Assembly (NCBI RefSeq): GCF_000019845.1
Contig: NC_010581.1
Span: 2,175,501 to 2,239,500, forward strand
Direction of reading: 5' to 3'
Length of the DNA stretch: 64,000 bases
Origin: Beijerinckia indica subsp. indica ATCC 9039
Lineage (GTDB): Bacteria > Pseudomonadota > Alphaproteobacteria > Rhizobiales > Beijerinckiaceae
The notes below the pieces were generated by a model. The model saw nothing but the letters and a program-made list of their open reading frames with translations. It was not told where the DNA came from and did not search any database. Made by a program: the position numbers and the translations under genes. Of the stretch, positions 23,543-62,695 are shown in pieces; position 1 is the first letter of the stretch; each line of letters begins with the position of its first letter.

Positions 23543-25327
23543 ATGAGTGCAATTGTCGCAAACTCTCTCCGGGAAAGGCCTTTCGCGGCAAATCATTTTG
23601 CCGCGCCGCAGGATGAAGGAAAGCCACGACAAGAGGGGAGCGAGCCAAAGCAGGCGGATGAGCCCTACGCTTCCAAGCCCGATGCCCCTTCGATCGCCGA
23701 TCCCGGCATCAGGTCCGGTTCTCCAACTGGCCTTGGAAGTGGATCTGGAGAACAGACATTCGCCCTGGAGCTGGCTCAGACCTATGCGCGCAAACGCTTG
23801 GCGTCGCTCCCACTGCTCGCTGGTTTGGATTGTCTCCTGGCGGCTGTCGGCCTTGCCTGGCTCGATGGCGCGCTTGTGGCCGGCTGGCTCGGCTTCAATC
23901 TCCTGGGCCTCACGCTCGTTTACCACCTGCTCACTCGTTTTCTGACACCGTCAGACGTTCATTGCCCAACGCCAAGCGAGCTCAAGACTTGGCAAACCGG
24001 CTTCGTGCTCGGTGAAGGGCTCCACGGCCTCGTCTGGGGTCTGTTCATCGGCCTGATCGTCGAGGCCGGTGGCGAACCGGCTTTGACCATCGGCCTCGTC
24101 TTCGCTTTGGCGATTGGCGCCACAAACCTGCGGCTCACCGCCCCCATCCCCGCCTGCGTCTTCGGCCCCCTGCTGCCGATGGCCACAGCTATCGCGATCA
24201 TTTCGCGTCTCACGATCGTGAGCCAGCAAGCGATGCCTCTCGCGGGTCTCGCAAGTGCGGTGCTGCTCTATTTTTTAGTAACCGCGCAAAAGATCCGCGC
24301 TGGCGTCCTCGAAAAGCTCACAATCCAAAACGAAAAAGACGAATTGATCACCGAGCTCGAACAGGCACGAGTCAACAGTGATCTCGCTCGCCGCCGTGCC
24401 GAGGAAGCCAATCTCGCCAAATCCCGCTTTCTGGCGACGATGAGCCATGAATTACGAACGCCGCTCAATGCCATTCTCGGATTTTCGGAAGTCATGAAGG
24501 GCGAATTGTTCGGCGCCCATGTCATTTCCTCCTACAAGGATTACTCGAACGACATTCATGCGAGTGGCCAGCATCTTTTGACCTTGATCAATGAAATCCT
24601 CGACCTCTCCCGCATCGAGGCGGGCCATCTGGAACTCCGGGATGATTGCGTGGCCCTCGCACATGTCGTCGATGACTGCCGGCATCTTCTTGCACTGAAA
24701 GCCAAGAAACGCGGTCTCACGATCGAGGAGCATGTGGAACCCGATCTGCCCCGGTTGCGCGCCGATGAACGCGCGCTGCGGCAGGTCGCGCTCAATCTTC
24801 TCACCAATGCGGTCAAATTCACGCCCCCCGGCGGCTGGATCAAGATCAAGATCGGCTGGACGGCGAACGGAGGCCAATATGTCTCCATCCACGATTCAGG
24901 ACCCGGTATTCCTGAAGAGGAAATGCCGATCGTGATGTCTTCCTTTGGACGCGGCACCCTCGCTCAAAAAAACGCCCTGGAAGGCTCGGGTCTCGGCCTG
25001 CCAATTGTCAAAGGCCTCGTCGACTTGCACAATGGAACATTCAGCCTGAAATCCCGTCTCCACGAGGGCACGGAGGCCATTGTCGTCCTGCCGGCCGAAC
25101 GTGTGCTAGCGGCCAATGCCGCTCCTTCTGTCGTCCCTTTGACCGTTTCCACCCCCACGCGGTTGGCAACCGAGTCGATAGGCGACGCATCTACGCCCAA
25201 TCCCTCGCTCGATGGACTAACCCTCAACGATTTCGCCTTGGACAAACAAGCCTTGAACGACCTCGTCCTCGATCATTTCAACCGGGACCATCTCGACCGC
25301 GCTTGTCCGCCACGTTCCGCGGCCTGA
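23543..25327 (+). CDS. Membrane sensor histidine kinase, DivJ/PleC/PdhS-like
   Basis: A 594-residue kinase. Residues about 1-65 are soluble and low-complexity, about 75-250 hold five or six transmembrane helices, then comes a short coiled coil (about 255-285). The HisKA H-box MSHELRTPLNAILGFSEVM (His302) follows, then a HATPase domain with N-box LLTNAVKF, G1 DSGPGIP and GSGLGLPIVK. The segments DIHASGQHLLTLINEILDLSRIEAG and SFGRG are typical of the alphaproteobacterial cell-cycle kinases that act on DivK. After the kinase core a tail at about 555-585 shows a degenerate five-residue leucine periodicity. No response regulator is adjacent. The signal sensed is unknown. Confidence 0.88.
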   Translation: MSAIVANSLRERPFAANHFAAPQDEGKPRQEGSEPKQADEPYASKPDAPSIADPGIRSGSPTGLGSGSGEQTFALELAQTYARKRLASLPLLAGLDCLLAAVGLAWLDGALVAGWLGFNLLGLTLVYHLLTRFLTPSDVHCPTPSELKTWQTGFVLGEGLHGLVWGLFIGLIVEAGGEPALTIGLVFALAIGATNLRLTAPIPACVFGPLLPMATAIAIISRLTIVSQQAMPLAGLASAVLLYFLVTAQKIRAGVLEKLTIQNEKDELITELEQARVNSDLARRRAEEANLAKSRFLATMSHELRTPLNAILGFSEVMKGELFGAHVISSYKDYSNDIHASGQHLLTLINEILDLSRIEAGHLELRDDCVALAHVVDDCRHLLALKAKKRGLTIEEHVEPDLPRLRADERALRQVALNLLTNAVKFTPPGGWIKIKIGWTANGGQYVSIHDSGPGIPEEEMPIVMSSFGRGTLAQKNALEGSGLGLPIVKGLVDLHNGTFSLKSRLHEGTEAIVVLPAERVLAANAAPSVVPLTVSTPTRLATESIGDASTPNPSLDGLTLNDFALDKQALNDLVLDHFNRDHLDRACPPRSAA

Positions 25328-39618: not shown

Positions 39619-42111
39619 TCATTTTATGGGCGCGTTGAGCTGCTGTCTCAATGCCATAACGAGAGAGGCGAGATCGCGATCCTCCGGAGACAATTGCGCA
39701 AGTTGCTCGGCATAGCGAAGCGCCATTGGAATGTCTCCGGCGTTTCGAGAGAAAGTGACCGCCGCTGACAAAAGTCCATGGTCATTGGGATGCCGCGCCA
39801 AAGCTGTCTTGACAGTGCCGAGCGCTTCATCGCCGCGATCCATCCCATGCAATGCGACCGCATAGACATAGGCAAATCGGGCTTGATCGGGGGCAAGTTC
39901 CGCCGCCTGACGAAGCTCGGTGAGCGCCTCATTCTGGCGCTTCAGGCGTACCAGCGTCAGCCCCAGCGCATGATGAACGCCTGCATCCTTCGGCGAGGCT
40001 GCAATGGCTTCCCGCAGCACCGCCTCTCCTGCAGTTTCGCGCCCAAGATGCCGATAAAGGTCGGCGAGATTGATTGCTGCCGTCGTATAGGCTGCGCTGA
40101 GGTGCAAAGCAGCCCTATATTCGATTTCCGCTTCAGGAAAGCGATTGCGCTGGACAAGGAAGCTGGCGAGCATGCTGCGAGCCTCGGGCCGATCGTCATT
40201 CAAACGCTGTGCGGCAATGAATTCAGCAGCAGCGCGCTCGAAACGCTCGCGGTCGGCAGGCGGCTGGCTCGCCGTCGGCACCGAGGCCAGCAGTGCGGCG
40301 GCCCTTATCCGCACACCCAAGCTCTCATCGGAAAGAAGCGTTGAAACGAGAGGCCAGATTTGAAGTCCGGGCAGGCCTTGCAGCATATCGAGCGCCGCAA
40401 TCCGCACTGTCGGATCTGGATCGCTGAGGCCATTTCTGGCCAGGACAAAATTCGATGGCGTGACGTGTCCACCAAGCTCGGTCAAAGCACTCGCTCGGGC
40501 AAGGGCCGGTGCACCACGATCTCCGGCGACGGCAGCAAGCCGGACTGCCGCATCCGGCATGTCAGTCCATGAGGAATGGAAAGCAGCAGCATAATTTTGG
40601 AACCCTTTGCGGTCGGGTCCATACCATTGCTCGATCGCCGACGCTGCCCATTCGGGCGGTTTACCAGTATGACAACCATTGCAAGCGTTCGGCGTGCCGA
40701 GCTTTGCGGACAGATCCGGTCTCGGAATTCGGAAACTGTGATCATGCCGCTGGTCGATGACCATATAGGTTCGCTGTGGCATATGACATGATGTGCAGGC
40801 AAGCGCGGGCGTTGCCCCGTCATAATGATGATGATGATGCGCCACGGTTTCATATCGGTCAGTGGCATGACATTGCAGGCAGACGCCGTTGCCAGGAATC
40901 CGGAGTTTCGCGCCATGCGGCTCATGACAATCGCTGCATGTGACGCCCGCCGCGAACATCTTGCTCTGCTTGAACGCCCCATAATTATAAACCTCATCAC
41001 GCATCTGCCCGTCGGCCTCAAAGAGGCCACGGCTAAGCAGGGAGACCCCATGCGTGTCAGAAAGCCATCGGCCAGGCACCCAGTCTTCAGAAAATGCGCT
41101 GCGTCGCGCGTGACAGAGGCCGCAGGTCTCAACTTCCTTGCGCAAGGTCGCAGGTGCAGCGCTCCGGCGAGGTAGACCAGTCGCGGGATCGGGTGACCAC
41201 GTCACGCCAGCTCGCTCGTCAAAGCTCACCAGAAACCCTTTGGTCGGGTCATTCTGTTTTGCAAACGGCCACCAGCTTTGCTTTTCTCGCGCCCAGGTAA
41301 CATGGCGAGAGCCCTGGCCATGGCACGCCTCGCAACCGACGCTGATCTCGGCAAAATGCGTGGCAAAGCGATCATGCACAGCGTCATAATTCTTGTGCAC
41401 ATCTGTCGAATGGCATTCGGCGCACATGAAGTTCCAGTTCTGATTCAACTTGGTCCAATGCAGAACATCGTCATGTCGGATCCCTTCGTCTGGATAGAGA
41501 TGGAACCAGCGCTGGCCGCCCTTCTCTTCCGGCCGCGTATCCCACGCGATCGACAAAGCCTGGAGCCGTCCATCGGGAAATTCCACGAGATATTGCTGCA
41601 GCGGGTCGATGCCGAAGGTATATTTGACTTCAAAAGTCGCAAGCTTTCCATCAGGCCCATCGGTTTCGACGAGAAACTTGTCGTCCTTGTGAAAGAAGCG
41701 CGAATGTATCCCGAAATAATCGAAGCTCGCATTGGCGAAATCGCCGAGCACTGTCGCGTCAGTCGCATGCGCCATAGCATGTTGGTGCTGCGACATCTTC
41801 CAGGATTGCGCCTCCGTCTGGTGGCAGGTGGCGCAAGTCTCACTGCCGACGAAAGTGAGCGCTGTCAGGAGCCCTGGTGTGAGGCCCTGATCCGTACCGC
41901 CCGGACTTTTGAAATATTGAAAAGCGAGGCCGCAGATCGCAACGAGCAAAGCGGACAGGACCACGCCGATCCAGACCATGCGCTTCGTGAGCACGCCGAC
42001 GGCCGCGCTGGGCGGTGGTATTTCCTTGGACGATGATATCGGCTCAACAACCGATCGCCTGCGGCGTGCTGCTCTCGTTGAAGATTGACCTTGCCTGCGC
42101 CCCAAGATCAC
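39619..42111 (-). CDS. Octahaem cytochrome c with HEAT and TPR repeats
   Basis: An 830-residue membrane-anchored multihaem protein. A cytoplasmic Arg/Ser-rich start is followed by one transmembrane helix (about 45-67). A periplasmic part has eight CxxCH haem sites (CATCH, CAECH, CEACH, CGLCH, CSDCH, CLQCH, CTSCH, CNGCH) from residue 93 to about 480, with many extra His able to be distal ligands. Then come HEAT-like repeats (about 530-640) and TPRs (about 645-815). It resembles cytochrome c554-family proteins fused to TPRs. Its redox partner is unknown. It follows the arylsulfatase gene by 86 bases with a terminator between. Confidence 0.9.
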   Translation of the reverse strand: MILGRRQGQSSTRAARRRRSVVEPISSSKEIPPPSAAVGVLTKRMVWIGVVLSALLVAICGLAFQYFKSPGGTDQGLTPGLLTALTFVGSETCATCHQTEAQSWKMSQHQHAMAHATDATVLGDFANASFDYFGIHSRFFHKDDKFLVETDGPDGKLATFEVKYTFGIDPLQQYLVEFPDGRLQALSIAWDTRPEEKGGQRWFHLYPDEGIRHDDVLHWTKLNQNWNFMCAECHSTDVHKNYDAVHDRFATHFAEISVGCEACHGQGSRHVTWAREKQSWWPFAKQNDPTKGFLVSFDERAGVTWSPDPATGLPRRSAAPATLRKEVETCGLCHARRSAFSEDWVPGRWLSDTHGVSLLSRGLFEADGQMRDEVYNYGAFKQSKMFAAGVTCSDCHEPHGAKLRIPGNGVCLQCHATDRYETVAHHHHHYDGATPALACTSCHMPQRTYMVIDQRHDHSFRIPRPDLSAKLGTPNACNGCHTGKPPEWAASAIEQWYGPDRKGFQNYAAAFHSSWTDMPDAAVRLAAVAGDRGAPALARASALTELGGHVTPSNFVLARNGLSDPDPTVRIAALDMLQGLPGLQIWPLVSTLLSDESLGVRIRAAALLASVPTASQPPADRERFERAAAEFIAAQRLNDDRPEARSMLASFLVQRNRFPEAEIEYRAALHLSAAYTTAAINLADLYRHLGRETAGEAVLREAIAASPKDAGVHHALGLTLVRLKRQNEALTELRQAAELAPDQARFAYVYAVALHGMDRGDEALGTVKTALARHPNDHGLLSAAVTFSRNAGDIPMALRYAEQLAQLSPEDRDLASLVMALRQQLNAPIK

Positions 42112-50350: not shown

Positions 50351-53300
50351 ATGCAGATCCCTCGGCGCCACACGCAATCGACGGTCGATCCCTATGCCGG
50401 TATCGCCTTTCGCGCGGCCAAGAGCGAGATTCGCAATCCCGACGGCTCGGTGGTCTTTTCTCTCGAAGGCATTGAAGTGCCGGCGGCCTGGAGCCAGGTC
50501 GCGGCCGATGTCCTCGCCCAGAAATATTTCCGCAAGGCCGGCGTTCCGGCGCGCCTGAAACGCGTCGAGGAACATAGCGTCCCCTCTTTCCTGTGGCGCA
50601 GCGTCCCCGATGAGGAAGCTCTCGCGGCGCTGCCGCCCGCAGAGCGATTCGTCTCTGAAATTTCGGCCAAGCAGGTGTTCGACCGGCTGGCCGGCGCCTG
50701 GACCTATTGGGGTTGGAAGGGCAGCTATTTCGATACCGAAGAGGACGCCCAGGCCTTTTACGACGAATTGCGCTTCATGCTGGCAAGCCAGATGGTGGCG
50801 CCGAATTCACCGCAATGGTTCAACACCGGCCTGTTCTGGGCCTATGGCATCGATGGACCGAGCCAGGGCCATTATTATGTCGATCCGTTCGATGGCGAAC
50901 TGGTCCAGTCGCAATCGGCCTATGAACATCCGCAGCCGCACGCCTGTTTCATCCAGTCGGTTCAGGATGATCTCGTCAATGAGGGCGGGATCATGGACTT
51001 GTGGGTGCGGGAAGCCCGCCTCTTCAAATATGGCTCCGGCACTGGCTCGAATTTCTCGAAGCTGCGCGGCGAGAATGAAAAACTGTCCGGAGGCGGCAAA
51101 TCCTCTGGCCTGATGTCCTTCCTGAAGATCGGCGACCGGGCAGCGGGCGCGATCAAATCGGGCGGCACCACGCGGCGGGCGGCCAAAATGGTCGTCGTCG
51201 ATGCCGATCATCCCGATATCGAGGATTATATCGACTGGAAGATGCGCGAGGAGCAAAAGGTCGCGGCCCTCGTCACCGGCTCCAAAACCTTGAAGAAGGC
51301 CCTGAAGGCCATCGTGCGCGCCTGCGTCAATTGCGAGGGGCCGGGCGATGATTGCTTCAACCCGGAAAAGAACCCGGCGTTGAAACGGGAGATCAAGCTC
51401 GCGCGCCGTGCCTTCGTGCCCGATGCCGCGATCAAGAAGGCGCTCCAGCTCGTTCGCCAGGGCGAGACCGACATTGATGTCGAAGCCTTCACCACGGATT
51501 GGGATTCGGAAGCCTATCTCACCGTCTCCGGCCAGAATTCCAATAATTCCGTGCGCGTGACCGATGATTTTTTACGCGCCGTGGAGCAAGATGGCGATTG
51601 GAACCTGACACGGCGCCTCGATGGCAAGCCGCATAAAACCCTGCCCGCGCGTGAGTTATGGGAGAAGATCGGCCGTGCCGCCTGGGCCTCCGCCGATCCG
51701 GGCCTGCAATTTCACACGACGATCAATGATTGGCACACCTGCCCGGCCGATGGCCCGATCGTCGCCTCGAATCCATGCTCGGAATATATGTTCCTCGACG
51801 ATACGGCCTGTAATCTTGCCTCGCTGAACCTGCTTCAGTTCCGCAATACGCAGACCAAGATTTTCGACGTCGAGGCTTATGAACATGCCGTTCGGCTTTG
51901 GACGATCGTGCTCGAAATCTCGGTGATGATGGCGCAATTCCCGTCCCGGGAAATCGCTTTGCTCTCCTATGAATTCCGCACGCTCGGCTTGGGTTTCGCC
52001 AATATCGGCGGGCTCTTGATGTCGTCCGGCATTGCCTATGATTCGGCGCAAGGCCGAGCGATCTGCGGCGCGCTGTCAGCGATCATGACCGGCATTGCCT
52101 ATGCGACTTCCGCCGAAATGGCCGGCCAGCTTGGCCCCTTCTCGGGCTATCAGCGCAACGCGACCGGCATGCTACGGGTCATGCGCAATCATGCACGCGC
52201 GGCCCGCGGCGAATCCACGGGTTACGAGAGCCTCGATATTCTCCCCGTCCCGCTCGATCACGTAGCCCTCGACGCAAACCCGGCGCTCGGCGCCCCTGCC
52301 CTGCGCCGTCACGCGGTCATGGCCTGGGACAAGGCTGTCGCCCTCGGCGAGCGGCACGGGTTCCGCAATGCCCAGGTCTCCGTTGTCGCGCCGACTGGCA
52401 CGATCGGTCTCGTCATGGATTGCGATACAACCGGCATCGAGCCTGATTTCGCCTTGGTGAAATTCAAGAAACTCGCCGGCGGCGGCTATTTCAAGATCAT
52501 CAACCGCGCCGTGCCGGAAGGTCTGCGCGCGCTGGGCTATCCGGAATCCCAAATCGCCGAAATCGAGGCCTATGCCGTCGGCCATGCCTCACTCAGCAAT
52601 GCGCCGGGTATCAATCACGCGAGCCTCACCGCGCGCGGTTTCACGCCGGAGAAGATCGCCGACGTGGAAGCGGCGCTCGCCTCCGCCTTCGATATCAAAT
52701 TCGTCTTCAACAAATGGACGCTCGGCGCTGATTTCCTGACCGAGGTCCTGAACATTCCGGCCGAAAAGCTGGATGAGCCGAATTTCGATCTGCTCAGCGC
52801 GCTGGGTTTCTCGCGCCAGGAGATCGAGGCGGCGAATATCCATGTCTGCGGCGCGATGACCATCGAAGGTGCGCCCTATCTGAAACTTGAACATTATGCG
52901 GTCTTCGATTGCGCCAGCATCTGCGGGCGCACCGGCAAGCGCTTCCTCTCGGTCGAGAGCCATATCCGCATGATGGCGGCCTCGCAGCCCTTTATCTCCG
53001 GCGCGATCTCCAAGACGATCAACATGCCGAACGAGGCGACGATCGAGGATTGCAAGAACGCCTATCTCCTCTCCTGGCGCCTGGGCCTCAAGGCCAATGC
53101 GCTCTATCGCGACGGGTCCAAACTGTCGCAACCGTTGAACAGCCAATTGCTGCAAGACGACGAGGATGAAACGGAAGAAGCGCTCGACGCATTGGTCGCC
53201 GCCCCCGCGCCCGTGCGCAGCACGATCGTTGCCGAAAAGATCGTCGAAAGGATCGTGGAGAAGACAGAACGTATCCGCGAACGTGAGCGTCTGCCCGACC

Positions 53301-54061
53301 GGCGCAAGGGCTATACACAAAAGGCAGTGGTCGGTGGCCATAAAGTGTATTTGCGCACCGGCGAATATGCGGACGGCCGGATCGGCGAGATCTTTATCGA
53401 CATGCACAAGGAAGGCGCGGCCTTCCGTTCGTTGATGAACAATTTCGCCATCGCCATTTCGGTCGGCCTGCAATATGGCGTGCCGCTGGATGAATATGTC
53501 GATGCCTTCACCTTCACCCGCTTCGAGCCGGCGGGTCTGGTACAGGGCAATGACGCCATCAAGAACGCTACATCGATTCTCGATTATGTCTTCCGCGAAT
53601 TGGCGATTTCCTATATCGGCCGCAATGATCTCGCCCATATCGATCCGAGCGAGATCGGCCCTGATGTGCTGGGCCAAGGCGAGAAGCAAAGCAGCCGGCC
53701 GCAGCAGACGCCCGTTGTGCCGCCCGGCACCGCGAAGCTTGTCTCGCATGGTTTCGTGCGGTCCAAGGCGGACAAGCTGATGCTGGTCCAAGGTGGCGTC
53801 GTTGCCTCCACAACACAAGGCGCGACAGCCCTTGCGGTTTCGACCACGACCGCTCTCAAGGAAAGCCTCGTGGAGGAAGTCTCGGCGGAGCTTGGCGCGC
53901 TCGACTGGGGTCCCGCCTCAACCTTGGCTGGCAAACGCGCCGAAGCACGGATGAAGGGCTATACGGGTGATTCCTGCACGGAATGCGGCAATTTCACCTT
54001 GGTGCGCAACGGCACGTGTTTGAAATGCGATACCTGTGGGGCGACGACCGGCTGCTCATGA
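50351..54061 (+). CDS. nrdJ: Class II (B12-dependent) ribonucleotide reductase
   Basis: Reduces ribonucleotides to deoxyribonucleotides with adenosylcobalamin, independent of oxygen. The 1236-residue protein has the catalytic [31 protein letters not shown] specificity segments, [15 protein letters not shown], a TSCPD domain (about 1000-1110) with [19 protein letters not shown], and a C-terminal CxxC pair zinc/reductant tail ([15 protein letters not shown]). A 110-residue helical insertion rich in Arg/Glu (about 945-985) links the barrel and the TSCPD domain. I see no B12 riboswitch in the 230-base leader, although class II genes often have one. No other RNR is in the window. Confidence 0.96.
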
Positions 54062-55989: not shown

Positions 55990-56301
55990 CAAAGAATGAC
56001 AGCGTGAGCGTAATAGCTCTCAACTATCCTGGGGGACGCTGAATAGGCCAATACCAAAAATTATATTATAAAACAAATAGATGCATTTTACTAAAGAGGC
56101 TGATTCAAAGCGTCACCAGTCCATCTCTTGAAAATCGCCGAGGGGCGTCGCACCTTTTCTCTTGTCTTCGTACGCCACGCGAGCCCGCATCCAACCGGAT
56201 GCATTTTCAAGCGGAGAACTCGGCTTTCGTAGACAAGGTTCAAGCTCATGCGGCGCCGCCTTGTTGAGCTCTTCGCGCCCCACTTTGTTCGAAGGCAAGC
56301 C
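55990..56301. other. 312-base leader of the hybrid kinase gene, with a possible minus-strand remnant
   Basis: AT-rich to 56095. Between about 56113 and 56225 the minus strand is open and reads like the C-terminal end of a protein (GWMRARVAYEDKRKG, then PLGDFQEMDW, stop). Its upstream part coincides with the plus-strand kinase gene and is a shadow. This suggests a gene end left at a junction. The kinase's ribosome-binding site AAGG is at about 56292. Confidence 0.35.
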
Positions 56302-58752
56302 ATGGGGGATCTTGTTTACGATCACCGCCGTGAATGGCGGAACCTGATTGATGCCTTGCCACAGCTCGTCTGGGCTGCCACGCCGGATGGCACTTGCGAC
56401 TACTTCAGCCACCAATGGACAGAGTACACCGGCGTCCCGGAAAGCGAGTTGCTCGGCTGGCGCTGGATAGAGGTGCTGCACCCGGACGACCGGGAACCCA
56501 CACGAGAATTCTGGACGGATTCAGTCGCGGGGCATCACCCTTATGACGTGGAATACCGCGTCCGGCGGCGTGACGGTGTCTATGGCTGGTTCAAGACGCG
56601 TGGCGTGCCGATCCGGGACAGCCGGGGGATCATATCCAAATGGTGCGGGAGCTGCACCGATATTTCCGACCTCAAGCGGGCCGAAGTCGCCCTGACCCGC
56701 GCCAAGGCAGAAGCGGAACAGGCGAATGTGGCCAAGGGCGAGTTCCTCGCCAATATGAGCCATGAGATCCGCACGCCGATGAACGGTGTGATCGGCATGG
56801 CCCAACTTCTGGATGGCACCGAATTGTCGGTGCAGCAGCGCGAATATGTGTCGATCATCCTCCACTCGGCCGATACATTGATGAGATTGATCAACGACGT
56901 TCTCGACTTCTCGAAGATCGAGGCCGGTAAGCTCGAGCTTGAGTCGATCCCGTTCCAACTGCGCGACACTTTGGGCGATACGCTGCACTCGCTCGCGGCG
57001 CGGGCCGCTCACAAAGGGCTAGAGCTCGCCTATCACGTCCCGGTCGAGATCCCTGACGCGCTGGTGGGAGACCCGACACGGTTACGCCAAATCATCACCA
57101 ACCTCGTCGGCAACGCGATCAAGTTCACAGAAAAGGGCGAGGTGGTGGTCGACGTTCGGTTAAAGGAAACGACCGATACGGACGTGCAACTCGAGTTCGA
57201 GGTGCGCGACACGGGGATCGGCATCTCGAAAAATCAGCAAGAGAAAGTATTCACGGCATTCGGCCAGGCCGACGCTTCAACGACGCGTCGCTATGGCGGC
57301 ACGGGGCTAGGCCTCACCATCGCAGCACAACTCGCGGAGAAGATGGGCGGGAAGATAAAGCTCGAGAGCGAACCCGGCGTCGGCAGCACGTTTTCCTTTG
57401 CTCCGATTCTCCACCTGGCCCGCGAAGAACGCAAGGTCCGCACGCTCTCTTCGGATGAATTGCGCGGCCAGCCGGTCTTGCTGGTGGATGACAATGAAAC
57501 CAACCGGCGCATTACCCAAGAGATCCTCGTCAATTGGGGCATGGTGCCGACGCTTGCGTCGAACGGCGCCGAGGCGCTTGCCGCGCTCGATCGGGCTATA
57601 GCTGAAGGTGTGCCGCCGCGGCTCGCGCTCCTCGACGTGTTTATGCCGGAAATGGATGGGTTCGAACTTGCCAGGCGGATCCGCACGCGGCAGGAATTGG
57701 CACAGACGCGGATCCTGATGCTGTCGTCGGCGGAACGAACGGACGGCGAAGCGCGGATGCATGAGCTCGGTATTTCCCGGTTGCTGATGAAGCCGATCAA
57801 GCAATCCGACCTGCTGAACGCTGTCACTGAGGCTCTCGGCGTCGGCTTGCCCGAACCCCACATCCCCATTCCATCGCCGTTCACCCGGCCTGGCGAGATA
57901 CCGATACGTCACGTTCTGTTGGCGGAAGATGGGGTCGTCAACCAGCAGGTGACTGTGGCTCTGCTCACCAAGCGGGGCCATCCGGTTGAAGTGGTCGAGA
58001 ATGGTGAGGAGGCTGTCGAGGCGGTGCAACGCGGCGACTTCGATGTGGTATTGATGGACGTGCACATGCCGGTGATGGATGGCCTCGCCGCAGCCCGCAT
58101 GATTCGTGAGCGAGAGCGGAACACGGGTGGTCACATTCCCATCATTGCCCTTACAGCCAGTGCCACAAAGGCCGACCGTGAGCGCTGTATGGCGGCAGGC
58201 ATGGATGATTATGTCACAAAGCCGTTCCGGGCAGCCGAGCTGTACCGGGCGGTTGAGCAGTCAGTGCCGCCCACTCAACAGAGTCCTCCTGTGACCGAAC
58301 TGGCGCCGCGCCTTGGGCTGGAGACAGCGCGGACAGCACAGCCCCCGGCATGTTTCCTGGCCGGCAAGGCACCGCGCCCAGCTGAGCCAGCACAAGTGCT
58401 CGACTGGGAGGGCGCGCTCCGCAATCTCGGCGATGAAGCGCTGCTTCGAGAGATGGCCGCGATGTTCCTCGACGAATGTCCCAAGCTCATGCGCGCGATC
58501 GACACGGCGATCGCAAGCAATGATGCGCCTGAGTTGCGTCGGGCGGCGCATACGCTGAAGGGCTCGGCGCATGTCATTGGCGCCCGTGCCGTGGCGCAGG
58601 CAGCGCTGGCGCTCGAAGCGATCGGCCGCGAGGGACAGTTGCAAGCCGCACCAAGCGTTCGAGGCGACCTTGAAACCGAACTCGCTCGATTGCCTGCGGC
58701 CTTACACGAGGCTGCAGGCGCTGCACCTGTGGAGAGTCTGCAGGTTCCATAG
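56302..58752 (+). CDS. Hybrid histidine kinase: PAS-HisKA-HATPase-REC-REC-HPt
   Basis: An 816-residue soluble kinase. A PAS domain (about 8-130, with DYFSHQWTEYTGVPESELLGW) ends in a short coiled coil. The H-box NMSHEIRTPMNGVIGM carries His154, and the HATPase has [16 protein letters not shown] and GTGLGLTIA. The first receiver has LLDVFMPEMDG (Asp445), the second VLMDVHMPVMDG (Asp586) and the HPt domain AAHTLKGSA (His750), giving a complete BarA/ArcB-type relay in one chain. I chose ATG 56302 with AAGG upstream. No membrane segment is present, so the signal is cytoplasmic. Its output partner is not adjacent; the receiver fused to glutamate dehydrogenase at 60917-62566 is a candidate. Confidence 0.93.
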   Translation: MGDLVYDHRREWRNLIDALPQLVWAATPDGTCDYFSHQWTEYTGVPESELLGWRWIEVLHPDDREPTREFWTDSVAGHHPYDVEYRVRRRDGVYGWFKTRGVPIRDSRGIISKWCGSCTDISDLKRAEVALTRAKAEAEQANVAKGEFLANMSHEIRTPMNGVIGMAQLLDGTELSVQQREYVSIILHSADTLMRLINDVLDFSKIEAGKLELESIPFQLRDTLGDTLHSLAARAAHKGLELAYHVPVEIPDALVGDPTRLRQIITNLVGNAIKFTEKGEVVVDVRLKETTDTDVQLEFEVRDTGIGISKNQQEKVFTAFGQADASTTRRYGGTGLGLTIAAQLAEKMGGKIKLESEPGVGSTFSFAPILHLAREERKVRTLSSDELRGQPVLLVDDNETNRRITQEILVNWGMVPTLASNGAEALAALDRAIAEGVPPRLALLDVFMPEMDGFELARRIRTRQELAQTRILMLSSAERTDGEARMHELGISRLLMKPIKQSDLLNAVTEALGVGLPEPHIPIPSPFTRPGEIPIRHVLLAEDGVVNQQVTVALLTKRGHPVEVVENGEEAVEAVQRGDFDVVLMDVHMPVMDGLAAARMIRERERNTGGHIPIIALTASATKADRERCMAAGMDDYVTKPFRAAELYRAVEQSVPPTQQSPPVTELAPRLGLETARTAQPPACFLAGKAPRPAEPAQVLDWEGALRNLGDEALLREMAAMFLDECPKLMRAIDTAIASNDAPELRRAAHTLKGSAHVIGARAVAQAALALEAIGREGQLQAAPSVRGDLETELARLPAALHEAAGAAPVESLQVP

Positions 58753-58810: not shown

Positions 58811-59464
58811 TCAGAATTCGGCGTCAAGTTCGACGATTTCTTCGGGTTCGAGCCGTGCCGCCTCGGTCCATTCGATCATCTCGGGCATGGCAATGATTTG
58901 CTGGCAATAGGCGCTACAGACCGAATCCAATGTGACGTGATAGGTGAGGAATCGCGTGACCACCGGCGCATACATTGCGTCGGCCATGGAACGCTCGCCC
59001 ATAAGAAATGGACCGCCATAGCTGGTGAGACAATTCCGCCAGATCACGGCAATGCGATCGATATCGGCCTGGGCCCGTTCCCAGACTTTGAAGTTAGGAA
59101 AATCGCCTTTCAAATTTACCGGCAAAGCCGAACGCAGGGCAAAGAAACCGGAATGCATCTCGCCGCAGATCGAGCGGCAGTGCGTCCGTTTCATTCTGTC
59201 TTCCGGCAGCAAATGCGCTTCCGGCTTGATTTCATTCAGATATTCGCCGATTGCCAGCGTGTCCCACACTTTGATCCCTTCATGTGTTAGGCAAGGCACC
59301 AGAAAAGAAGGGGACAAAAGAAGGAGCTCAGCGCGCATCGCGGGATCATCGGGCGAGATGATCTTTTCCGCAAAAGGCAGCCCGGCAAATTTCGTCAGTA
59401 ACCAGCCACGAAGCGACCAAGACGAATAGTTCTTACTGCTGATCGTAAGCGTTGCACTATTCAA
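58811..59464 (-). CDS. Glutathione S-transferase family protein
   Basis: A 217-residue GST-like protein with the thioredoxin-fold N-domain (YSSWSLRGWLLTK with Ser as likely thiolate-activating residue, SPSFLVPCLTHEG, DTLAIGEYLNE) and a helical C-domain (GPFLMGERSMADAMYAPVVTRF with the N-capping box). The start is TTG at 59464, preceded by GAGGAG, because no ATG fits. The substrate is unknown. It is convergent with the hybrid kinase gene. Confidence 0.88.
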   Translation of the reverse strand: MNSATLTISSKNYSSWSLRGWLLTKFAGLPFAEKIISPDDPAMRAELLLLSPSFLVPCLTHEGIKVWDTLAIGEYLNEIKPEAHLLPEDRMKRTHCRSICGEMHSGFFALRSALPVNLKGDFPNFKVWERAQADIDRIAVIWRNCLTSYGGPFLMGERSMADAMYAPVVTRFLTYHVTLDSVCSAYCQQIIAMPEMIEWTEAARLEPEEIVELDAEF

Positions 59465-59647
59465 GGATCACTCCTCTTTTTGTATATTCTACCTCAAATA
59501 TGCTCGTTAAAAAACAAGAACGTACATAGCCTGAAGTATTCCGAGAAAAATTTTACGCCGGCTTTCTGAACAGCATTTGACGAGCATAGAATAAGCAACT
59601 CATCACGGTTCACGCGCGTTATTTCGCCCGAGTGATGGTGCGCGTTG

Positions 59648-60865
59648 ATGATTTACCAAACATATGAAGTGCAGGAGAACCTGCTCGACCTGCTCAGGCC
59701 ATTGGCTGCCACGGCAGGAAAGACACTGCGATCGCCATACCCTGGGCTTGGGCAGGTTTGGCCAGCCAGTGAAATCGTCGGCATTTTAGAGACTTTCGCC
59801 AATCTTTCTGTGACGCATGTGCGCCGCCCTTTTGCCATCAACTCGGTTCTTGTGGGTGATCGCCGGGTCCCGGTGACGGAAGAAATCGTCGCTTCGACAC
59901 CCTTTGCCACCCTCCTTCATTTCAAGAAGGAAACCAACCTGCACCAGCAACGCGTTTTGGTGGTCGCCCCCATGTCAGGTCATTTTGCGACCCTGCTGCG
60001 CGCGATGATCGAGACCGTTTTAGCTGACCATGACGTCTATATCACGGATTGGCACAATGCACGCGACGTCCCGCTGAGTGCGGGCAGATTCGATCTCAGC
60101 ACCTTTGTCGACCATGTAATCGATTTCCTGCGCATGATGGGGGCGAGATCGCATGTCATCGCGGTATGCCAACCATGCGTCCCCGTGCTCGCCGCAGCTG
60201 CCCTCATGAACGAAGACAAGGACGACGCACAGCCTTCCAGCATGACCTTGATGGCTGGACCGATCGACACGCGCATCAATCCGACCAAGGTCAACGCACT
60301 CGCGACCCAGCATCCAATCGCCTGGTTCGAGCAGCACCTGACGGATAAGGTGCCGCTCTGTTACAAGGGCGCACGACGGGATGTCTATCCGGGCTTTCTA
60401 CAACTCACGGCCTTTATGAGCATGAATTGGGACCGCCATCTTCGCGCCTTCAAGGATATGGCGGAGGCGCGGGTGGCCAATGATCTGCCAAGACTTCAAG
60501 CCATTCAAACATTTTATGATGAATATTTGACCGTTATGGACTTGCCGGCCGAACTCTATTTGCAAACCATTCAATTGATTTTTCAGGATCACGCTTTACC
60601 ACGTGGCAAGCTCACGGTGCATGGCCGTCCAATCAATCCCAAAGCTATCAAACATACCGCGCTCATGACCGTTGAGGGTGAGCGAGACGATATTTGCGGC
60701 CTCGGCCAAACGCTTGCTGCCCAGGAGCTTTGCTCGGGATTGAAACCCTATATGAAGTTCCATCATGTGCAGATGGGCGTTGGTCATTATGGCGTCTTCG
60801 CCGGGCGACGCTGGAGCACTGAAATTTATCCCAGAGTGCGTTACACCATTCAAATGACAAGCTGA
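59648..60865 (+). CDS. phaZ: Intracellular polyhydroxyalkanoate depolymerase
   Basis: Mobilises stored poly-3-hydroxybutyrate from native granules. The 405-residue protein matches the cytoplasmic PhaZ family, with the lipase-box-like AVCQPCVPVLAAA in which Cys replaces the usual Ser nucleophile. YITDWHNARDVPLS, VEGERDDICGLGQT (Asp) and MGVGHYGVFAGRRW (His) complete the catalytic triad. I chose ATG 59648; a TTG three bases earlier is possible. A perfect hairpin follows. It is flanked by a GST gene and the receiver-glutamate dehydrogenase gene. Confidence 0.93.
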   Translation: MIYQTYEVQENLLDLLRPLAATAGKTLRSPYPGLGQVWPASEIVGILETFANLSVTHVRRPFAINSVLVGDRRVPVTEEIVASTPFATLLHFKKETNLHQQRVLVVAPMSGHFATLLRAMIETVLADHDVYITDWHNARDVPLSAGRFDLSTFVDHVIDFLRMMGARSHVIAVCQPCVPVLAAAALMNEDKDDAQPSSMTLMAGPIDTRINPTKVNALATQHPIAWFEQHLTDKVPLCYKGARRDVYPGFLQLTAFMSMNWDRHLRAFKDMAEARVANDLPRLQAIQTFYDEYLTVMDLPAELYLQTIQLIFQDHALPRGKLTVHGRPINPKAIKHTALMTVEGERDDICGLGQTLAAQELCSGLKPYMKFHHVQMGVGHYGVFAGRRWSTEIYPRVRYTIQMTS

Positions 60866-60890: not shown

Positions 60891-60918
60891 AAGTGGCGGT
60901 CACAGGAAACCGCCACTT
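60891..60918. terminator. Bidirectional terminator
   Basis: AAGTGGCGGT (60891-60900) pairs perfectly with ACCGCCACTT (60909-60918) around an eight-base loop, between the convergent phaZ and receiver-glutamate dehydrogenase genes. It touches the stop codon of the latter. Confidence 0.7.
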
Positions 60919-62566
60919 ACGGAAACACCCCGCGCAGCCGTTTGGCCTCGGTCACGCGGGAGACGCCTTCGATCAGCGCCGCGGTGCGCATATCGAGCTT
61001 GTCGGTCTCCGCACGATGCAGCGTGCGCTGGAACGCATCAAGCAGGATCGCCTTCAATCGCTGGTTGATCTCCTCCAGCGTCCAGGTCAAGTTCTGTGTG
61101 CCCTGCACCCATTCGAAATAGGACACAGTCACACCGCCGGCATTGGCGAGGATATCGGGCAGGACGAACACGCCACGCGCATTGAGCACATCATCGGCCT
61201 CCAGGGTGGTCGGGCCATTGGCGCCTTCGGCCAGGAGACGACAATGGATCCGTTCGGCATTCTCGGCTGTGATCTGGTTCTGCAGCGCCGCCACAGCCAG
61301 CACGTCGCATTCAAGCTCCAGAAGTTCGGCATTGGAGATCGGCTCGGCGTCAGGGAATCCCTTCAGTTCTCGGTTGGTGGCGACATATTTCAAGAGCGCC
61401 TCAACCGACAGGCCCGCGGGATTGTAGAGGCCAGTAGAGACATCACTGACACCGATGATCTTTACCCCTGTTTCAGCAAGGAATTGCACTGTGAAGCTGC
61501 CGACATTGCCGAATCCCTGGACCACGGCCGTCGCCTCTTTGAGGTCGAGCCCGATGTGCTGCGCCGCGGCCTGGACAAGATAGACTAAGCCCCGGCCGGT
61601 CGCTTCCTTCCGCCCTAGGGAACCGCCGAGGACGACAGGCTTGCCCGTGACCACCGCCGGCACCGCATATCCCATCTGCTGGCTGTAGGTGTCCATCACC
61701 CAGGCCATCACCTGCTCGTTCGTACCCATATCGGGCGCAGGAATGTCTTTCTCTGGTCCAATGATGTTGATAATCTCGGAAGTATAGCGCCGGGTCAGCC
61801 GCTGCAATTCTCTGTTGGACAGACCAGTCGGATCGATCCGCACACCGCCCTTGGCGCCGCCAAAGGGCAGCTTCATGAGTGCGCATTTCCAGGTCATCCA
61901 AGTCGACAGCGCCGCCACGTCGCCAAGCCCGACGTCCTGATGATAGCGGATACCGCCCTTGGTCGGCCCCATGCTCAGCACATGCTGCACGCGGTAGCCG
62001 AAGACCGTTTCCACCTGCTGTTGATCGTCGCGGATGAAGGGAAACGATACCACCTGAGTGCGCTCTGGGAACAGCAGCCGCTGACGAAAATTGTCGTCCA
62101 GGTTCATGATCTGGGCTGCTTTCAGGAACTGCTGCTGGGCAAGCCGGAATATTGGCGAGTCCCATTCGTTACCGCGCGTCCGCGCCCGCGCCAGTGTGTA
62201 GCGGATCGCGCGGCCAAGCGAGACCGCATTGATCTGGGTTTTGAGCAGATAGGCATACGCGCCCACATCCACCGCCCGCGCGGCCAGCTTCACATCATCC
62301 ATGCTGGTCAGCACGATGACCGGCGTGTCTGGGGCAGCGGCTCGGACCTTGAACAGGGTCTCCAGTTCTTGGCTGTCAGGCAGGATCAGGTCGAGCAGAA
62401 CGAGATCGAGCGCGCCGCGGCCGAGCCGCGCCAAGCCATCGCTGAGACAATCAACCACCTCCACGGCACACCGCAGTTGCACGTCCCCCGCAAGAAATCG
62501 CAGGACCAGCTTAACGTGAAGGGGATTGTCCTCGACCAGCAACAGGCGAACGGGATGATCCACCAT
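60917..62566 (-). CDS. CheY-like receiver domain fused to glutamate dehydrogenase
   Basis: A 549-residue single open frame. Residues 1-125 are a receiver with all conserved positions: acidic pair Glu12-Asp13, phospho-acceptor Asp59 in VLLDLILPDS, Thr87 in VIVLTSMDD and Lys109 in YLLKT. Residues about 137-545 are a complete hexameric-type glutamate dehydrogenase: GPTKGGIRYH, WMTWKCALMKLPFGGAKGG with catalytic Lys239, PAPDMGTN (Asp279), and the dinucleotide loop GFGNVGS (351-357). It interconverts glutamate with 2-oxoglutarate and ammonium. The ATG at 62566 follows CAGGAG. I know of no characterised enzyme with this order. Phosphorylation could gate activity or oligomer state (inference). Confidence 0.93.
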   Translation of the reverse strand: MVDHPVRLLLVEDNPLHVKLVLRFLAGDVQLRCAVEVVDCLSDGLARLGRGALDLVLLDLILPDSQELETLFKVRAAAPDTPVIVLTSMDDVKLAARAVDVGAYAYLLKTQINAVSLGRAIRYTLARARTRGNEWDSPIFRLAQQQFLKAAQIMNLDDNFRQRLLFPERTQVVSFPFIRDDQQQVETVFGYRVQHVLSMGPTKGGIRYHQDVGLGDVAALSTWMTWKCALMKLPFGGAKGGVRIDPTGLSNRELQRLTRRYTSEIINIIGPEKDIPAPDMGTNEQVMAWVMDTYSQQMGYAVPAVVTGKPVVLGGSLGRKEATGRGLVYLVQAAAQHIGLDLKEATAVVQGFGNVGSFTVQFLAETGVKIIGVSDVSTGLYNPAGLSVEALLKYVATNRELKGFPDAEPISNAELLELECDVLAVAALQNQITAENAERIHCRLLAEGANGPTTLEADDVLNARGVFVLPDILANAGGVTVSYFEWVQGTQNLTWTLEEINQRLKAILLDAFQRTLHRAETDKLDMRTAALIEGVSRVTEAKRLRGVFP

Positions 62567-62695
62567 GACCCACACTCCTGAATTCTATCAGAAATATTGG
62601 GCTTCTTCACTTTCCGTGCAAGCATCAGAGCTATGGAGCAATATACAATTGATCTTATCGCTTCCCCTCGTTTTGAAAAGTGTCAAAATATCATA

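Follow-up and report, generated by a model that had tools for sequence, protein, structure and literature searches.

The window (the whole 64-kb stretch of DNA that was analyzed) encodes a response regulator whose output is a complete glutamate dehydrogenase (GDH), referred to here as RR-GDH. The gene of a hybrid histidine kinase in the same window is proposed to belong with it and to supply its phosphoryl group. The two genes probably form a phosphorelay with an enzyme as output. The co-travelling of the sensor kinase gene in other genomes strongly suggests that the GDH is switched directly by a signal, and we infer that phosphorylation changes GDH activity.

The RR-GDH gene (60917..62566, 549 amino acids plus stop codon) is located on the minus strand, which the earlier note had not specified, and reads without interruption from the ATG at 62566 to the stop at 60917. 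The claim of a single open reading frame (ORF) fusing a receiver to a complete GDH was thereby borne out. A Shine–Dalgarno-like sequence (AGGAGT, 62579..62574, minus strand) is found 7 nt 5' of the ATG. The GTG at 62575, in the same frame, is an alternative start, but since it overlaps AGGAGT, the ATG is likelier. Three Pfam domains were matched far above the cut-off: Response_reg (residues 9–110, E-value 1.1e-15), ELFV_dehydrog_N (residues 167–295, 1.3e-52; positions 1–128 of 129 of PF02812), and ELFV_dehydrog (residues 314–546, 1.9e-78; positions 1–241 of 241 of PF00208). Both ELFV domains are of full length. The NCBIfam cut-offs for GDH equivalogs were not reached by RR-GDH (GdhA_Arch, 474.6 of 750 bits). 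The CheY-like receiver, delimited by Pfam, the structural model, and conservation, comprises residues 1–133 (62168..62566, minus strand) up to the end of its helix 5. It contains Glu12, Asp13, Asp59 (codon 62392..62390, minus strand), Thr87, and Lys109, all of which had been described as intact, as well as Tyr106. The GDH part (residues 134–549; 60920..62167, minus strand), assigned by Pfam and the nearest solved structure, has the catalytic Lys239 and Asp279 named before and also Lys203, Lys227, and Ser482. The substrate-binding or catalytic roles of these five residues are presumably those of Clostridium GDH, from which we assigned them.

An AlphaFold2 monomer model of RR-GDH was calculated from a deeper alignment (A2, 83 rows) and had a mean pLDDT of 91.4 and a pTM of 0.81; an earlier model from a close alignment (A1, pLDDT 67.5) was set aside. 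Helix 5 of the receiver is predicted to span residues 114–133 and the first GDH helix to begin at residue 138, with E134-W135-D136-S137 in between (EWDS, 62156..62167, minus strand). The linker, put at 12 residues in the earlier note, is shorter according to this model, in which these four residues separate the helices. Alignments to the nearest receiver-less GDHs also start at EWDS, and E134 and W135 are kept in 223 and 222, respectively, of 224 aligned fusions. The best 50 Foldseek matches listed for the model were GDH structures. The GDH of Thermotoga maritima (1b26) aligns end to end with residues 138–549 (E 1.9e-134; TM-score by target 0.93), and none of the PDB GDHs among the matches listed covers residues before 138. 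RR-GDH resembles the receiver-less relatives of alignment A2 in Lys203, Lys227, Lys239, Asp279, and Ser482 (invariant, 83 rows), whereas it differs from the hexamer-type small GDHs (1b26, Bacillus RocG/GudB, plant GDH) by the N-terminal receiver of about 133 residues.

The fusion is not confined to the window. With the window protein, a distant Lujinxingia member (60% identity), and a degenerate Halomonas form as queries, at least 231 proteins were found among the matches listed, all of them sharing the receiver–GDH architecture. The best 120 matches to the window protein (68–90% identity over 98–100% of the length) each combine its three Pfam domains in a single polypeptide. A missed stop or frameshift, which the earlier note had named as a refutation, and an assembly artifact were in practice ruled out by the recurrence of this single chain in the at least 231 listed proteins. 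Conservation was read from 224 aligned fusions (222 distinct), which were drawn from the best matches to two intact fusions and thus favor intact ones. Glu12, Asp13, Asp59, and Lys109 are invariant in 224/224 and are also kept in each of 21 further fusion proteins, which answers the question of Asp59 conservation raised before. At position 87, 223 of the 224 sequences have Thr or Ser (P0205 has Ala), and at position 106 each has Tyr or Phe. The receiver is the faster-changing half of the fusion (mean majority frequency 0.65 compared to 0.81 for the GDH part); judged by this alignment, it is under constraint at the phospho-site, with the rest of the domain diverging. Lys203 and Lys227 are present in 224/224, Lys239 and Asp279 in 223/224 each. 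P0180 (K239A) and P0195 (D279G) are otherwise normal fusions with a single catalytic change, either of which might be a sequence error or mark a further inactive enzyme.

Among the sources of the fusion are Sinorhizobium/Ensifer, Leisingera, Halomonas, Zobellella, Pseudomaricurvus, Gimesia, Lujinxingia, and metagenome-assembled genomes of Latescibacteria and Gemmatimonadota. The fusion thus covers several bacterial phyla and is rare and patchy in genome samples. It was detected in 2 of 398 genomes sampled across the phylum of the window, in 1 of 385 genomes of its class (the window's own), in 10 of 201 genomes of the family containing Halomonas stenophila, and in 3 of 199 genomes from the phylum to which Rhodopirellula sp. 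JC639 belongs. Since Halomonas falls into the phylum of the window but outside its class, the window's genome is probably alphaproteobacterial. At E ≤ 1e-140, a threshold also passed by two receiver-less GDHs, the window's own genome was the only one of 60 relatives with RR-GDH; the single genome of the same genus in this set is without it. The GDH part of G641 is identical to that of L003. Because the distribution is patchy and copies are also found on Sinorhizobium and Ensifer plasmids, RR-GDH may have spread by horizontal transfer. The fusion of Sinorhizobium fredii NGR234 (NC_012586.1:1463435-1465081, 79.6% identity), a well-studied symbiont, is encoded on a record of 2.43 Mb in the plasmid collection.

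The hybrid histidine kinase of the window (56248..58752, plus strand, 834 amino acids) shows the Pfam domain order PAS-HisKA-HATPase-REC-REC-HPt with the phosphorylation sites His172, Asp463, Asp604, and His768. It is homologous to the RR-GDH-linked kinases found elsewhere (61% over 675 amino acids in the case of Ensifer/Sinorhizobium). The kinase and RR-GDH genes are 2164 bp apart and on opposite strands. Two genes lie between them, a glutathione S-transferase-like gene (GST; 58811..59464, minus strand; PF13409) and a PHB depolymerase-like gene (59645..60865, plus strand; PF06850), neither of which is a recurrent neighbor. The plasmid annotations of Ensifer adhaerens and Sinorhizobium chiapasense place a response regulator/hybrid kinase of about 980 residues approximately 40 bp beyond RR-GDH. 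In S. fredii NXT3 (L115:13595-16640), the kinase is annotated as two coding sequences, one for the PAS part and one for the kinase part, so that the kinase core is the second gene away from RR-GDH. The window encodes a second histidine kinase (HisKA-HATPase; 23543-25327, plus strand) with 35% identity over 240 amino acids to the first, for which linkage to GDH elsewhere was not seen, as far as examined.

Of 28 distinct loci (L149 was left out as a duplicate of L003), 24 have a kinase of this family in the vicinity of RR-GDH. It adjoins RR-GDH in 23 of them, the window being the 24th. The kinase gene is placed downstream on the same strand in 19 loci, upstream on the same strand in three (L002, L156, and L157), and convergently in one (L008), in addition to the arrangement in the window. 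In the 18 downstream loci measured, between −4 and 99 nt separate RR-GDH from the earliest plausible start of the kinase. Under a stricter rule (alignment >400 amino acids), 23/28 loci are linked; the L157 kinase, about 0.5 kb from RR-GDH, aligns over 380 amino acids only and is without HPt. In the same scan, 68 receiver-less GDH loci served as controls, and a kinase alignment >400 amino acids was found at none of them, with the flank per locus being smaller on average in these controls (68 loci, 1.08 Mb) than in the fusions (12 loci, 0.24 Mb); eight of the 68 showed shorter alignments (93–388 amino acids). In the DNA examined around L004, L006, L009, and L010, the kinase was not found near RR-GDH (the L009 contig ends 1.15 kb past the gene), and the respective genomes contain similar hybrid kinases elsewhere. 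When the neighbors of 29 loci were clustered, the kinase was the only recurrent family besides antisense ORFs and scattered small groups. Conservation of a whole island, with the PHB depolymerase, the GST, or acetyl-phosphate enzymes as partners, was considered and rejected, as only the kinase recurs widely in these loci.

The same association was seen at the genome level. RR-GDH (E ≤ 1e-170) is present in ten of the 201 genomes from the Halomonas-containing family, and precisely these ten also have the kinase (E ≤ 1e-180); the other 191 have neither. Fisher's test gave 4e-17 by genomes, a count inflated by shared ancestry, and 5e-4 by 24 genera. Among the 60 relatives of the window genome, the kinase (E ≤ 1e-120) was confined to the window's own genome, as was RR-GDH. 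In ten linked kinases analyzed with Pfam, the transmitter is alike throughout (HisKA, HATPase, two receiver stretches, and HPt), and the sensor parts vary: PAS in the window, otherwise PAS_7 pairs, GAF+PAS, CHASE, dCache-HAMP-PAS, a YfiR-like DUF4154, or none found. All 24 kinases compared have the HisKA histidine and the two receiver aspartates, and 23 of the 24 have the HPt histidine. Receiver distances track HisKA-HATPase distances with r 0.957 (22 loci, L115 and L157 being left out of the distance correlations), a value inflated by shared ancestry. The linkage spans Sinorhizobium to Latescibacterota, Gemmatimonadota, and Lujinxingia; the order of the two genes differs, but they remain adjacent. 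Although relatedness inflates the figures, the linkage of kinase and RR-GDH holds across several phyla.

The HPt of the linked hybrid kinase, a domain that a phosphorelay requires, supports reading the pair as a phosphorelay. A signal perceived at the variable sensor part would lead to autophosphorylation of the kinase (at His172 in the window), and the phosphoryl group would pass via the kinase's own receivers to the HPt (His768), which would then phosphorylate Asp59 of RR-GDH. The phosphorylation-dependent face of the receiver (helix 4, strand 5, and helix 5), which leads on into the first GDH helix, might then alter how active the GDH oligomer is or how it assembles, and the flux between glutamate, 2-oxoglutarate, and ammonium would be set without a transcriptional step. 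Counting against the phosphorelay reading are the unlinked loci (4/28), the opposite strands in the window, a loss of the receiver, and a degenerate branch of the family; the latter two are described below.

For the evolution of the receiver, a quick tree of 103 GDH parts was calculated (SH-aLRT support only, midpoint-rooted). It splits 37 receiver-less rows from the rest with a support of 99. Three further receiver-less GDHs (L012:3979-5226, L013:10001-11248, and L015:10001-11248), which show 68–71% identity in the GDH part, nest among the fusions together with L004, L010, and P0111 (support 95), which points to an apparent loss of the receiver. One gain of the receiver followed by this loss would be the simplest reading of the tree if its root lies among the receiver-less GDHs. 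Two of the four unlinked loci, L004 and L010, group with L012, L013, and L015; the other two, L006 and L009, are located elsewhere in the tree.

The degenerate branch comprises L154:9069-10706 (minus strand) and L155:9156-10793 (plus strand), both from one genus of the Halomonas family, and cluster P0211 (Halomonas salifodinae). These proteins are full-length fusions with the exchanges K203L, K227Q, D279G, and S482A and many further losses, but Lys239 and the GxGxxG motif are kept. At positions conserved at ≥98%, the branch retains 19/19 residues in the receiver and 114/157 in the GDH part. Its receivers are 77–84% identical to those of Halomonas-group relatives, which in turn are 76–92% identical to L018, whereas the identity in the GDH half is 57–59%, compared to 82–91% usual among Halomonas-group relatives. 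In the tree, L154 and L155 branch from within the Halomonas fusions, and their stem measures 1.72 changes per column. Inclusion of the degenerate loci lowers the receiver–GDH distance correlation from 0.91 to 0.40, but the receiver–kinase correlation stays at 0.957. The kinase adjoins the degenerate RR-GDH and is conserved. The dN/dS of L154 versus L155, a single pair, is 0.052 for the receiver and 0.137 for the GDH part; both values fall inside the spread seen in ten intact pairs (0.050–0.207 and 0.039–0.216, respectively). The branch has thus kept its phosphorelay input and lost its catalytic output, and it is still under purifying selection. The genomes of L154 and L155 contain another, intact-looking GDH match (457-residue frame).

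Several other explanations were weighed against an enzyme-output phosphorelay. The kinase and RR-GDH could be neighbors by chance or shared island history and have different partners, with Asp59 charged by small phosphodonors, for example, acetyl phosphate. The window itself, where 2.2 kb separate the two genes and they are not transcribed together, would fit this, as would the 4/28 loci without the link. Nevertheless, adjacency kept from Sinorhizobium to Latescibacterota, Gemmatimonadota, and Lujinxingia despite changed gene order and the co-occurrence of 10 genomes with both genes and 191 with neither make it extremely improbable. It is also highly unlikely that the receiver is an appendage for oligomerization or localization for which phosphorylation is irrelevant. 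The nesting of receiver-less relatives in the fusion clade speaks for this reading, but an invariant phospho-site in an otherwise diverging receiver, the kinase linkage, and the co-occurrence speak against it. Moreover, the receiver-less proteins group with two of the four loci that lack the linked kinase.

The degenerate branch bears on a third explanation, namely, that the GDH part serves mainly as a signaling or sensing module (an oligomeric scaffold, an NAD(H)/glutamate sensor, or a metabolite-gated phosphate sink) rather than as an enzyme output, and feeds the glutamate or redox state into the phosphorelay. Its members have lost most substrate and catalytic residues and retain Lys239, GxGxxG, and the receiver, with dN/dS values like those of intact pairs and a conserved adjoining kinase. 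However, no such loss occurs elsewhere in the 224 sequences, where P0180 and P0195 differ by one change each, and the case depends on one recent branch and a single dN/dS pair; with a second GDH match in those genomes, catalysis could simply be dispensable there. We regard the sensing module as unlikely. Because one Halomonas branch keeps the receiver and kinase without most catalytic residues, catalysis cannot be the sole output of RR-GDH. A dehydrogenase fold with a signaling role beyond catalysis is a tentative addition to the enzyme-output phosphorelay, and one that we consider somewhat doubtful: the phosphorelay might control an oligomer that binds glutamate and NAD(H) and also receive information from it, and the sensor kinase and the glutamate/2-oxoglutarate/redox state would thereby meet in one protein. 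The H. salifodinae branch might then be a phosphorylated, nucleotide-binding pseudo-dehydrogenase regulator that has discarded catalysis.

BarA and ArcB are hybrid kinases of the order HisKA-HATPase-REC-HPt. The RR-GDH-linked kinases are alike in combining transmitter, receivers, and HPt in one chain. They differ in that their HPt is preceded by two receivers and their sensors are exchangeable, and their partner is an enzyme rather than a transcription factor. The earlier note had stated that response regulator outputs are normally DNA-binding, cyclic-di-GMP, or methylesterase domains. This is correct as a rule, but according to PMC5847659, response regulators fused to metabolic enzymes are a recognized class. 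In Table 1 of the 2009 P2CS publication, which concerns enzymes in two-component proteins, GDH (EC 1.4.1.3) is marked "Probable" (PMC2716373). RR-GDH resembles these enzyme-output regulators in its N-terminal receiver with an intact site followed by an enzyme. The archaeal receiver–enzyme fusions are called narrow in distribution in PMC5847659, whereas RR-GDH spans several bacterial phyla. GDH is not mentioned in the passages of PMC1183210 that were examined. In the literature searched, no functional study was found that deals with RR-GDH, the kinase linked to it, or the pseudoenzyme branch, although earlier mention in reviews is possible. Receivers on metabolic enzymes, GDH included, have thus been listed before; the kinase linkage of RR-GDH and the degenerate branch were not found described in the literature searched.

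If the phosphorelay reading is true, a central carbon–nitrogen enzyme would be directly under a sensor kinase and respond faster than by transcription, and a compact two-gene module would be spreading between phyla and plasmids with its transmitter kept and its sensor part variable. It would also provide a system for studying the control of a large metabolic oligomer by a receiver, including close pairs of intact and degenerate enzymes behind equally intact receivers. The copy on large replicons of S. fredii strains, NGR234 included, would then offer a clean study system.

RR-GDH is the sole match to PF00208 in the window genome, and no large GDH (PF05088) was found there. The genome has a glutamate synthase match (PF01645, 1556 codons). 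In the 15 fusion genomes searched, PF01645 was matched in 15/15 and PF05088 in 11/15. Because glutamate synthase is present and no other GDH was matched by PF00208 or PF05088, glutamate deamination is as likely as assimilation, and the sole GDH of the window genome may function in both directions, in the breakdown of glutamate and in assimilation. Of the phosphorelay control of ammonium assimilation put forward in the earlier note, the first part stands, that is, a real response regulator with GDH output, an invariant Asp59, and a linked HPt-bearing kinase; the direction of assimilation does not follow, given the glutamate synthase.

In the surroundings of the kinase–RR-GDH pair, nothing convincing was found in the way of mobile elements or repeats. 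Neither Rfam families nor tRNA genes were found in the 64-kb window, and promoter and terminator scans of the window performed no better than on shuffled sequences. An 830-residue protein encoded at 39619-42111 (minus strand) has cytochrome c7/c554-like CXXCH matches and TPR repeats. The gene at 50351-54061 (plus strand) encodes an ordinary Class II (B12-dependent) ribonucleotide reductase.
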